A DNA stretch of 8,194 nucleotides from NCBI GenBank assembly GCA_002712305.1, contig PATE01000048.1, positions 17,725-25,918 of the forward strand, written 5' to 3'. Under the pieces are notes generated by a model. The model was not told the DNA's origin. It searched no databases and was given only the letters and a program-made list of their open reading frames with translations. Every line of letters begins with the position of its first letter. Position 1 is the stretch's first letter. This document shows positions 4,756 to 8,039 of this stretch, piece after piece. This DNA comes from Gemmatimonadota bacterium (lineage in GTDB: Bacteria > Latescibacterota > UBA2968 > UBA8231). The position numbers and the translations under genes are program-made.

Positions 4756-5706
4756 GTGCACTTCCACGTCGCAGGCAACACCGTCTTCGATCTGCGGATC
4801 GCCCAATGGCCCGATGCCGAGGCCGCAGGCGCTGACGGTTGGACCGCAAGCAATGTGGTGCTCACCGATGATCCGCCGACACCGATGCTGGGCGGCTGCG
4901 GGGCCGCACCGGCCTACGCGCTTGCGCGACTCTCCCACGGGCTGAATACGGTCAGGCTCAATACGAGCCTCGGGGCAGACCTGTTCGGTGGACTGGCGCA
5001 CCTCTGGCTTGTACACGCCGGCGTCGCTCTGCTCGCGCCGCCCGAACCTGGTGTGGCGACGTCCACTCACATCATTCATGCCGAAGCCGAACGTCGGCGC
5101 AGCGCCTTCTATCGAGGGCATCGCGTCGACTGGTGTCGCTCTCTCGAGGCGCCCACACCCGACTGGTTTCTGGCGGCTGGATACGGTCTGGTGGAGGCCG
5201 CCGATGCCGATGAATTAACCGAGGTGTGCAGTGAGTTGGCGAAAAACGGTAGCCAGATTGTTGTTGATCCTGGCCCGTGGTTCGCGCAGTGTGCCACGGC
5301 AGATCAACTGTCACCTCTCTGGCCCCATGTAGATGTTCTGCTGGGAACGGCCGACGAACTAGGCCCTCATGTGGAGGACCATATCGAGGTGGACGACCTT
5401 CCGAAGGCGTTGCTGAAACTGGGCGTTCGCACGGCCATCGTGAAGCGAGGTGCTGAGGGGGCCAGTTGGGCTCAGCGTCAGAATGACGGCCACACCCAGA
5501 CCTTCGCGGTGGATGACGGCTACAGCGTTGGAGCGGGGGATACCTTCAACGCTCGGCTCGTATTCGGTTTGGCCCGCGGAGACGAGTTGTCCGATGCAGT
5601 ACGAGCCGCCTGCGGGCTGGCGACGCGGGTCGTGACCGAGGGACGCGGTGTGCTGGGGGCGTTCGGAGATCACCCCACCGTAGAGGGGCTCGATACCTGG
5701 CTGTGA
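4756..5706 (+). CDS. PfkB-family carbohydrate/nucleoside kinase
   Basis: A 316-residue ribokinase-like protein of the PfkB family, which transfers ATP phosphate to a sugar, nucleoside or related alcohol. The N-terminus HVAGNTVFDLRI (4-15) is the usual first strand. GGCGAAPAYALARL (46-59) is the substrate-side glycine motif, although the asparagine normally following it is alanine (A51). SLGADLFG (71-78) matches the G-x-D-xx-G segment, VKRGAEGA (229-236) the ATP-side strand-turn, and VGAGDTFNA (258-266) the PfkB signature 2 with GAGD and the catalytic base D262. Length is typical (about 300-330). The substrate cannot be told. The GTG start lies 2 bp after the MOSC stop, with no strong Shine-Dalgarno, so translation is probably coupled. 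It is the last gene of the 1564-5706 operon. No convincing terminator follows; the short CCGG repeat at 5712-5723 has no T tract. Confidence 0.85.
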   Translation: MHFHVAGNTVFDLRIAQWPDAEAAGADGWTASNVVLTDDPPTPMLGGCGAAPAYALARLSHGLNTVRLNTSLGADLFGGLAHLWLVHAGVALLAPPEPGVATSTHIIHAEAERRRSAFYRGHRVDWCRSLEAPTPDWFLAAGYGLVEAADADELTEVCSELAKNGSQIVVDPGPWFAQCATADQLSPLWPHVDVLLGTADELGPHVEDHIEVDDLPKALLKLGVRTAIVKRGAEGASWAQRQNDGHTQTFAVDDGYSVGAGDTFNARLVFGLARGDELSDAVRAACGLATRVVTEGRGVLGAFGDHPTVEGLDTWL

Positions 5707-5738
5707 TCTGTCCGGCGTGCCGGTGGGCCCGCTATACC

Positions 5739-5768
5739 TTGACACAAAGTGACGGCCCCGGTTATACT
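5739..5768 (+). promoter_or_regulatory. Sigma70-type promoter for the thrS leader
   Basis: TTGACA (5739-5744) is a perfect -35 box. TATACT (5763-5768) matches 5 of 6 positions of the -10 consensus, with an 18-bp spacer; reading TTATAC at 5762 gives 17 bp. Transcription would begin near 5775, leaving a leader of about 330 nt before thrS. This is the best promoter in the window and lies exactly where an attenuated leader would need it. Confidence 0.75.
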
Positions 5769-5777
5769 TCGACAAGT

Positions 5778-5791
5778 GGACTGAAAAGTCC
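5778..5791 (+). other. Small GAAA-capped hairpin at the 5' end of the thrS leader
   Basis: GGACT (5778-5782) and AGTCC (5787-5791) pair perfectly around a GAAA tetraloop, within a few nucleotides of the predicted transcript start. Such a stem could protect the 5' end of the RNA. It is short, so chance is not excluded. Confidence 0.4.
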
Positions 5792-5819
5792 GGCAACTCG
5801 TTCCCGGAGTGAACTTTGG

Positions 5820-5975
5820 ATGTCTCTGGACCGGCGAAATAAAGGCCGACGTAATATCGCGGTCGTTCGCCGCCCGCTGCAGCAGCGCGTGGCGATGGCA
5901 TCCGTTCTCTCCACCCCTCTCCCTACAACTACTACGCCGCCTGCGCGAGCAGGCGTGACGATGGCGGGAGGCTGA
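5820..5975 (+). CDS. Threonine-rich leader peptide of thrS
   Basis: A short reading frame, 51 residues if started at ATG 5820, whose distal part holds the codons ACC (5913), ACA ACT ACT ACG (5925-5936) and ACG (5958). There are six threonines in the last 26 residues, four of them in a row, directly upstream of a threonyl-tRNA synthetase gene. ATG 5820 is preferred because GGAG (5806-5809) lies 10 nt upstream and the predicted transcript starts about 45 nt before it; an in-frame ATG at 5895 would give a more classical 26-residue leader but has no clear ribosome site. The frame is open back to 5703, upstream of the promoter, so that longer version is not expected on the leader RNA. The N-terminal part of the 51-residue form is arginine-rich and resembles no protein I know. 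The peptide itself probably has no function; translating it is the sensor. Confidence 0.65.
   Translation: MSLDRRNKGRRNIAVVRRPLQQRVAMASVLSTPLPTTTTPPARAGVTMAGG
5938..5955 (+). promoter_or_regulatory. GCGA-capped hairpin directly after the Thr codons
   Basis: CGCCTGC (5938-5944) pairs perfectly with GCAGGCG (5949-5955) around a GCGA (GNRA) tetraloop. The stem begins two nucleotides after the last codon of the Thr run (ACG, 5934-5936). A ribosome halted on that run would melt it, as expected for a pause or 1:2 hairpin in an attenuator. A shifted register pairing ACGCC (5934-5938) with GGCGT (5952-5956) is also possible and would include the last Thr codon. Confidence 0.6.
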
Positions 5976-6048
5976 GTGTCGCTGAACTGAGGCGCACTCG
6001 AAGACCGTTCGGGCAAGGCCCGGACGCACGTAGCTGACACCCATCGTC
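5957..6048 (+). promoter_or_regulatory. Predicted antiterminator of the thrS attenuator
   Basis: GACGATGG (5957-5964) is perfectly complementary to CCATCGTC (6041-6048), the ascending arm of the terminator; U5956 can add a wobble pair with G6049. Immediately inside, GTGTCGCT (5976-5983) pairs with AGCTGACAC (6032-6040) over 8 bp with one bulged base. The 3' strand is thus continuous from 6032 to 6048, while the 5' strand has an 11-nt bulge (5965-5975) that contains the leader stop codon. A further 9-bp hairpin with an AAG loop (6006-6026) sits within the helix. A ribosome at the stop codon would cover both 5' strands and prevent this fold. Confidence 0.6.
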
Positions 6049-6071
6049 GATAGGCTCGACGGTGGGTTTTT
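6039..6071 (+). terminator. Intrinsic terminator (attenuator) upstream of thrS
   Basis: A 12-bp stem, 6039-6050 with 6056-6067, has one G-T wobble (6044/6062) and no mismatch, closes a 5-nt loop (TAGGC), and is followed by TTTTT (6067-6071). It lies 36 bp before the thrS start. A strong terminator placed between a promoter and its gene only makes sense if it is conditional, which is the main argument for attenuation. Confidence 0.88.
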
Positions 6072-6096
6072 CATTGAAATCGAGAGCCGCAAGGCC

Positions 6097-6100
6097 GGAG
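6097..6100 (+). promoter_or_regulatory. Ribosome binding site of thrS
   Basis: GGAG lies 7 nt before the GTG at 6108 and sits downstream of the terminator, outside the antiterminator helix. Control is therefore expected at transcription rather than by hiding this site. Confidence 0.7.
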
Positions 6101-6107
6101 CAAAGAC

Positions 6108-8039
6108 GTGAAAATTGGTATCAGAGAAGGTGAGGTTCTCGAGCACGAAGGACCCGCGACGCTAAAGGAAATCCTCGTCGAGCACGACAAGTCTCTGCTC
6201 AAGGAGTTTATCGCCGCCCGGACGGCAGCCGATGAGCAGGTCGACTTCCATACGGAGCTAGCCGACGACGCCGAGGTGCAATTGATCCGGTGGGATGCCG
6301 ACGAAGCCGCCTGGATCTATCGTCACAGCATGTCGCATGTCATGGCACAGGCTGTTCGTCGACTGTTTCCAGATGTGAAACTCGCCATCGGCCCCGCGAT
6401 CGACGATGGCTTCTACTACGACTTCGACGCGCCGGAACCGTTCACGCAGGAGGATCTGAATAAGATCGAGAAGGAGATGAAGCGCGTCGGCAAGCAGAAC
6501 CATCGTTTTGAGCGTGAAGAGGTCTCCCGCGAGCAGGCCCGTGAACTGCTGATCGACGAGCCGTACAAGCTCGAGATCATCGACGATCTGGAGGATGACC
6601 AGTCCCTGACATTCTACAGGGATGGGGACTTTGTCGACCTGTGCCGAGGTCCGCACATGCTCAGCACGAGCCAGGTGAAGCACTATAAGCTGTTGAGTGT
6701 GGCCGGGGCGTATTGGCGGGGTGACGAGAAGCGGAAGATGCTCCAACGGATCTACGGAACGGCCTTCGCGACACGCGAAGCCCTTGATGAGCACATGCAC
6801 ATGCTCGAAGAGGCCAAGAAACGCGACCATCGCCGACTCGGGCAGGAACTCGATCTATTCTTCTTTGACGACGAGGTGGGGCCTGGCTTGCCCATGTGGC
6901 AGCCGAAGGGCACGGTGCTGATCGAGGAACTCGAAAAGTTGGCGAAAGAGACGGAGACAGCGGCGGGCTACGACCGTGTGCGCACGCCACACATCTGCAA
7001 AGAGTCGGTATATCACACGAGTGGCCATCTACCGTATTACCAGGAATCAATGTTTCCACCGATGGAGCTGGATGGGACGACGTACTACCTGAAGCCGATG
7101 AATTGTCCGCATCATCACAAGATCTTCGGCTCTTTGCCCCGTTCCTATCGAGACATGCCATTGCGACTTGCCGAATATGGTACGTGTTATCGGTATGAGC
7201 AGTCGGGAGAGTTGTTTGGTCTGATGCGGGTGCGCTCGATGCAGATGAACGACGCGCATATCTACTGTCGCCTCGACCAGTTCGAGGAAGAATTCCTCGC
7301 CGTGTGTCGCATGTATCTCGATTACTTCGAGTTGCTGGGCATCGAAAAGTATGTCATGCGATTCAGCACCCACGATACGGAGGGTCTCGGCAAGAAATAC
7401 GTTGATGCCCCGGAGTTGTGGAAGAAGACGGAGGACATGGTGCGCCGCACGCTGGAGCATGGGGGCATCAACTACGAGGAAGTCTCCGGAGAGGCCGCTT
7501 TCTATGGCCCGAAGATCGACGTCGAGATCTGGAGTGCCATCGGTCGGGAGTTCTCGATGGCCACAAATCAGGTCGACTTTGCCGTGCCGGAACGATTCGG
7601 GCTCTCGTACGTGAATAGCGACGGGGAAGATGAGGTCCCGCTGTGCATCCATCGGGCTCCTCTGGGCACGCATGAGCGCACGGTGGGATTTCTCATCGAA
7701 CACTACGCAGGCGCTTTCCCGGTCTGGTTGGCGCCGGTACAGGCGGTGGTGTTGCCCATCGCGGAGCGCCATGCCGAGTACGGTCAGCGCGTACTGGAGG
7801 CCTTGCTCGAACAAGGTGTGCGGGCTGAGGTCCACGCGGATCAGACGCTCAACTACCGAATCAGAGCCGCGCAGAAACAGAAGGTGCCGTACATGATGAT
7901 CCTGGGTGATCGCGAAGTGGAGGAGCTGCAGGTATCCATTCGCGAACGCAGCGGCGAGAATCTCGATCCCATGTCGCTTGACGCCGTCGTGCAGATGATG
8001 GGCGAGAAGATTCGTTCACGCAGCGGCGAACTCCAGTAA
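6108..8039 (+). CDS. thrS: Threonyl-tRNA synthetase
   Basis: A complete 643-residue class II synthetase (E. coli ThrRS has 642) that charges tRNA-Thr with threonine in the cytosol. Domains in order: a TGS domain (about 1-62); the N2 editing domain that removes mischarged serine, with H73-x-x-x-H77 and the C179...H183 pair in LCRGPH; the catalytic core (about 245-535); and the anticodon-binding domain (about 540-640). Motif 2 includes YGTCYRYEQSGE (357-368) with R362. Motif 3 is HRAPLGTHERTVGFL (515-529) with R524. The active-site zinc ligands that read the threonine hydroxyl are C333 (MNCPHH), H384 (NDAHI) and H515. All editing and catalytic residues I checked are present, so the enzyme should be active and proofreading. 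GTG start at 6108, fixed by GGAG 7 nt upstream and by the TGS domain beginning at once. Expression is probably set by the attenuator upstream. Unlike in E. coli, infC does not follow directly. Confidence 0.98.
   Translation: MKIGIREGEVLEHEGPATLKEILVEHDKSLLKEFIAARTAADEQVDFHTELADDAEVQLIRWDADEAAWIYRHSMSHVMAQAVRRLFPDVKLAIGPAIDDGFYYDFDAPEPFTQEDLNKIEKEMKRVGKQNHRFEREEVSREQARELLIDEPYKLEIIDDLEDDQSLTFYRDGDFVDLCRGPHMLSTSQVKHYKLLSVAGAYWRGDEKRKMLQRIYGTAFATREALDEHMHMLEEAKKRDHRRLGQELDLFFFDDEVGPGLPMWQPKGTVLIEELEKLAKETETAAGYDRVRTPHICKESVYHTSGHLPYYQESMFPPMELDGTTYYLKPMNCPHHHKIFGSLPRSYRDMPLRLAEYGTCYRYEQSGELFGLMRVRSMQMNDAHIYCRLDQFEEEFLAVCRMYLDYFELLGIEKYVMRFSTHDTEGLGKKYVDAPELWKKTEDMVRRTLEHGGINYEEVSGEAAFYGPKIDVEIWSAIGREFSMATNQVDFAVPERFGLSYVNSDGEDEVPLCIHRAPLGTHERTVGFLIEHYAGAFPVWLAPVQAVVLPIAERHAEYGQRVLEALLEQGVRAEVHADQTLNYRIRAAQKQKVPYMMILGDREVEELQVSIRERSGENLDPMSLDAVVQMMGEKIRSRSGELQ

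Follow-up and report, generated by a model that had tools for sequence, protein, structure and literature searches.

A probable leader-peptide attenuator with threonine codons upstream of thrS in a family of Latescibacterota

In one family of Latescibacterota, thrS is very probably controlled by a ribosome-mediated attenuator of transcription, with charged tRNA-Thr as the signal that is sensed. The leader was analysed in a window of 8,194 bases, by which we mean the whole stretch of DNA examined, which belongs to contig C69 in an assembly of 4.77 Mb. Threonine attenuation of this gene had been put forward in the original prediction and now gains support from comparison across the family, from the clustering of threonine codons and from the absence of comparable leaders before other genes.

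The thrS locus and its leader

The ORF at 6108-8039 matches TIGR00418 with 678 bits, which exceeds the curated cut-off and agrees with its earlier identification as thrS. The + strand genes 5' of thrS are dCMP-deaminase-like, response regulator, beta-lactamase-family, acetolactate-synthase-like, MOSC and PfkB kinase genes. The features of the locus are as follows.

5739-5768, + strand: near-consensus promoter, TTGACA-18-TATACT, kept in genome G020
5806-5809, + strand: GGAG, probable Shine-Dalgarno sequence of the leader ORF, 10 nt 5' of the ATG
5818-5824, + strand: 5' strand of helix H1, GGATGTC, which holds the leader start codon
5820-5975, + strand: predicted leader ORF, 51 codons plus TGA, MSLDRRNKGRRNIAVVRRPLQQRVAMASVLSTPLPTTTTPPARAGVTMAGG
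5897-5903, + strand: 3' strand of helix H1, GGCATCC, shortly before the threonine codons
5925-5936, + strand: proposed regulatory codons ACA ACT ACT ACG (four Thr)
5938-5955, + strand: hairpin CGCCTGC-GCGA-GCAGGCG, between the threonine codons and the antiterminator strand
5956-5964, + strand: antiterminator 5' strand, TGACGATGG, within the last leader codons
5973-5975, + strand: leader stop codon, TGA
6039-6067, + strand: intrinsic terminator hairpin of 12 pairs, then a T run
6041-6049, + strand: terminator 5' arm, CCATCGTCG, which is also the antiterminator 3' strand
6108-8039, + strand: thrS, threonine--tRNA ligase, GTG start, TIGR00418

The promoter, claimed as near-consensus in the original prediction, agrees with the consensus at 11 of 12 positions and is the sole such site in 5600-6250 (shuffled sequences have a mean of 0.1); transcription would start near 5775. 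The leader ORF most likely begins at ATG 5820 and would encode 51 amino acids, since GGAG lies upstream at a suitable place and the GGATGTC context recurs in relatives. GGAG or GAG is found 7-10 nt ahead of the aligned ATG in G020, G021, G013, G019, G002, G007 and G022. The short frame with threonine codons that had been predicted therefore exists, but it is longer than was implied and its likely start is not near those codons.

Neither strand of the window has a run of four ACN codons other than ACA ACT ACT ACG. In 400 dinucleotide shuffles of the leader its threonine clustering was never equalled, which agrees with the earlier argument that a match between the codons and the downstream enzyme would not readily arise by chance. 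The predicted ORF thus has what ribosome-mediated attenuators require, a short reading frame with clustered codons for the cognate amino acid, here threonine ahead of thrS. As in such attenuators, the leader has a promoter of its own, and a terminator under that promoter separates its ORF from the gene. The hairpin that directly follows the threonine codons, the strong terminator and the alternative pairing had each been predicted and were each recovered; the last joins 5956-5964 to 6041-6049 in nine pairs, and the terminator surpasses shuffled expectation.

Conservation, wear and loss of the leader

The closest relatives of the window genome form one family (f1) within the phylum Latescibacterota, of which 21 genomes with a readable thrS 5' end, the window genome included, were compared. 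The conserved threonine-rich frame that the original prediction proposed to look for in relatives is found in 15 of the 21, whose leader ORFs have four or more Thr per eight codons. Where the window has four consecutive threonine codons, relatives have runs of 6 to 10, with tracts of up to 9 or 10 codons in genus g3 (for example MISVMLTVASAPCLSGFPSGPTATTTTTTTTTTMCAG in G004) and the tract MAFPTTTTTTRTTAAILSGAMVDY in G016. Retention of the threonine codons is nevertheless partial: G013 and G019 keep the ORF with 3 Thr, and the leader is lost in 4 of the 21, being decayed in G001 and gone in G014, G017 and G018. At loci L021, L022 and L018 (G018, G014 and G017, respectively), a promoter-like sequence stands directly 5' of the old terminator hairpin (ACCCGCTGTCG...CAGCGGGT), so that the hairpin should sit too near the start to terminate.

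Most differences in the threonine tract among close relatives either fall at third positions or involve whole codons, the pattern that a translated frame would show. No residue other than threonine is strongly clustered (cluster score summed over 17 leaders 97 for threonine, against 47 for the next residue), and in 14 of the 15 threonine-rich leaders no more than 5 of 400 dinucleotide shuffles matched the clustering. Of 16 leaders measured, 14 have 29-33 nt from stop codon to terminator; the other two, those of the window genome (G000) and G020, have 63-65 nt and carry an inserted extra hairpin. Every leader with an ORF (17 of 17) has CGA(T/C)GG or a near match inside the ribosome shadow at the stop; as this motif lies in the last codons or just past the stop, a ribosome at the stop would cover it.

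Two further observations concern codon choice and initiation. ACT accounts for 38 of 135 leader threonine codons in 17 family genomes, against 7 of 100 threonine codons in six genes of the window and 10 of 148 in the thrS genes of genus g3; the excess in the leaders possibly reflects choice of a sensitive isoacceptor. At L005 and L008-L013 (genus g3) and L014 (G023), the leader ATG lies only a few bases past the -10 box, and there the transcript that carries the leader ORF is probably leaderless.

The leader appears confined to the family. No threonine-rich leader precedes thrS at any of 35 loci from the phylum's other families (two of them, G036 and G039, clipped by contig ends), and among 80 contig loci examined only family members have it. 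In five family genomes nothing convincing of the kind was found before ileS, valS, metG, leuS, pheS or hom. A genome pattern search for a threonine run followed by CGAYGG picked out the leader of thrS in G011 and in G016, with other matches scattered. At L045, a thrS locus from one Chloroflexi relative, a T-box scores above the Rfam threshold.

In a tree, the family ThrRS is distant from that of the phylum's other families (branch 0.94, support 100/100) and clusters with Bipolaricaulota and Chloroflexi sequences, which suggests replacement of thrS by transfer. Loci L007 (G002) and L019 (G007) share the upstream gene and have homologous leaders, with ThrRS identity of 75% in the N-terminal half and only 59% in the C-terminal half; the G007 C-terminal half is 77-84% identical to those of G001 and G016. 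These identities suggest that a portion of the synthetase was swapped beneath a retained leader.

Competing helices and helix H1

The terminator helix is 96.7% paired across leaders, with compensatory changes, and covaries. In the antiterminator helix 89% of pairs are retained and only one-sided exchanges of the G-U/G-C type occur, with no double compensatory change in the leader comparison. The covariation proposed as a check thus appears in the terminator and is missing from the antiterminator. A strand shared by two helices would be expected to show one-sided changes, although these are weaker evidence. Antiterminator duplex energy is moderately better than that of shuffles (z 0 to -2.9).

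Pairing was modelled by folding the RNA that exists just ahead of synthesis of the terminator 3' arm. For the window leader, the terminator 5' arm is held by the antiterminator with a probability of 0.79 when a ribosome is stalled at the threonine codons, against 0.23 when it is at the stop. Antiterminator pairing is higher with the stalled ribosome in 15 of 16 modelled leaders, G016 being the exception with a mixed result (0.52 and 0.69 vs 0.54). In the folding model the antiterminator therefore excludes the terminator, and its 5' strand is free on stalling and covered at the stop, as in an attenuator. Folding of the complete RNA at equilibrium always prefers the terminator, so antitermination must be kinetic and settled while the RNA is being made, as it is in classical attenuators. 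Even with no ribosome on the RNA, the antiterminator is predicted in most leaders, and for this reason a protector (1:2) hairpin, which is present in trpL and which we treat as typical of attenuators rather than defining, gains no support from folding. The hairpin at 5938-5955 has counterparts at the same place only in G020, G021, G022 and G023 besides the window genome, and is probably a spacer.

Eight leaders with a 5' untranslated part and a long ORF were examined, and helix H1 can form in all 8; it lies at the same place in G020, G021, G022, G002, G007, G013 and G019. Its duplex energy beats shuffles in most of the eight (z -0.6 to -3.8). In the alignment 83% of cells are paired and 5 of 9 pairs show changes on both sides, a count that leans towards the helix since the alignment was hand-registered along it. 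The helix covaries across genera, with a score of 0.425, compared with 0.237 in shuffled alignments and no more than 0.131 when the register is slid. A UGGUA loop inside H1 of G021 was considered as a tRNA-Thr anticodon-like loop and rejected, as it is not conserved. We infer that H1 could serve as a pause or initiation gate. Tentatively, it may provide a second control, in which a ribosome stalled at the threonine codons would open H1, expose the start codon and recruit further ribosomes, or in which H1 would time the polymerase to the first ribosome; we hold this to be possible but rather doubtful.

Mechanism, alternatives and relation to known systems

The course of events that we propose draws on the anatomy of the sequence, on how this is conserved within the family and on the potential pairings. 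RNA polymerase would start at the leader promoter and the leader ORF would be translated at once. When charged tRNA-Thr is ample, the ribosome would pass the threonine codons and arrive at the stop codon at 5973-5975, where it would cover 5956-5964; the terminator could then form and an RNA of about 300 nt would be released. Under scarcity of charged tRNA-Thr, the ribosome would stall at 5925-5936 and leave 5956-5964 free to pair with 6041-6049 before the terminator 3' arm exists. Transcription would then proceed into thrS, yielding more ThrRS.

Retention of the ORF in most family members, with an N-terminus that is often MS or MIS, would also suit an ORF that encodes a functional small protein and is followed by a leaky or constitutive terminator. 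Such a protein would, however, vary from 24 to 58 amino acids with slight conservation outside the threonine tract, and the leader ORF has no family match in Pfam or NCBIfam. The 3' end of the ORF is, moreover, tied to the antiterminator strand, and its spacing to the terminator is near constant. We consider a functional small protein very unlikely. It is likewise hard to see the threonine run as a coincidence and the hairpin as the end of an upstream transcript. The window leader alone, with just four consecutive threonine codons, might allow that reading, but the terminator follows its own near-consensus promoter immediately ahead of thrS and the longer runs in relatives contradict it, leaving it with next to no probability.

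Autogenous control, with ThrRS or uncharged tRNA binding the structured leader, for example in the region enclosed by H1, would draw on the high degree of structure (MFE z -3.3) and on the covariation of H1. Against it, an Rfam search of the leader, in the window and in the family, matched no known RNA family, the T-box (RF00230) included, which argues that no T-box is present. The sequence enclosed by H1 is not conserved, and inspection by eye found no recurrent tRNA-Thr anticodon-like loop within H1. Most genus g3 leaders, G016 and G023 are missing the H1 region and yet retain the threonine codons and the terminator. Autogenous control is accordingly highly improbable, and ribosome-mediated attenuation remains our preferred reading.

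Classical ribosome-mediated attenuators are known from enterobacteria in trpL-trpE, thrL-thrABC and pheM-pheST, the last of which likewise targets an aminoacyl-tRNA synthetase. The thrS leader resembles them in its ORF with cognate codons, in the antiterminator strand within the ribosome shadow at the stop and in the overlapping intrinsic terminator. It differs in having thrS as its target, in the lack of a convincing 1:2 protector hairpin and in the conserved H1, which holds the leader start codon paired with bases before the threonine codons. It also has no sequence relation to them by Rfam: RF00506 (Thr_leader, the enterobacterial thrL) had no match in 5700-6120 even at E up to 10. The well-studied controls of thrS itself are the T-box and autogenous repression, and in the E. 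coli thrS operator ThrRS binds tRNA-like hairpins to repress translation. The present leader would respond to the same signal as a thrS T-box, uncharged tRNA-Thr, but through a translating ribosome. It shares its gene with the E. coli operator, and here a transcription terminator is preceded by a coding leader.

Attenuation of synthetase genes has precedents. The pheST attenuator is cited in PMC1262725, and leader attenuators of Streptomyces trpS, leuS and alaS, which concern other amino acids and another phylum, place synthetase attenuation outside Proteobacteria (PMC1262725, PMC8079986); Bacillus hisS leaders have also been reported (PMC2965389). The nearest case is thrL-thrS of Streptomyces lividans, in which a leader peptide with 2 Thr, MKRVRPFLETTPGFVPAR, precedes thrS (PMC8079986, Table 4). 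Its transcript is leaderless and has one hairpin with no U-rich stretch, which left termination unclear to its authors (PMC8079986). The leaders described here share with it a threonine-containing peptide before thrS, and differ, in a different phylum, in having up to 10 consecutive threonine codons, a clear intrinsic terminator and conservation across genera. The suggestion in the original prediction of an undescribed regulatory class was therefore too strong. Since synthetase attenuation is known and a threonine leader before thrS has been reported in S. lividans, the thrS leader very probably represents a known mechanism, classical ribosome-mediated attenuation, rather than a new class, with H1 as a possible new detail. 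If true, H1 gating would be a variant of attenuation absent from the open literature that we found.

The open papers that we found describe no such switch in Latescibacterota. The leader extends classical leader-peptide attenuation, so far reported chiefly in Proteobacteria and Actinobacteria apart from the Bacillus hisS report, to this uncultivated phylum, with an anatomy far more complete than in the earlier S. lividans report. Within a single family the switch occurs in several states, with 10 threonine codons, with 4, with 3, decayed and deleted, which makes it possible to trace on one gene how an attenuator is gained, wears and is lost.
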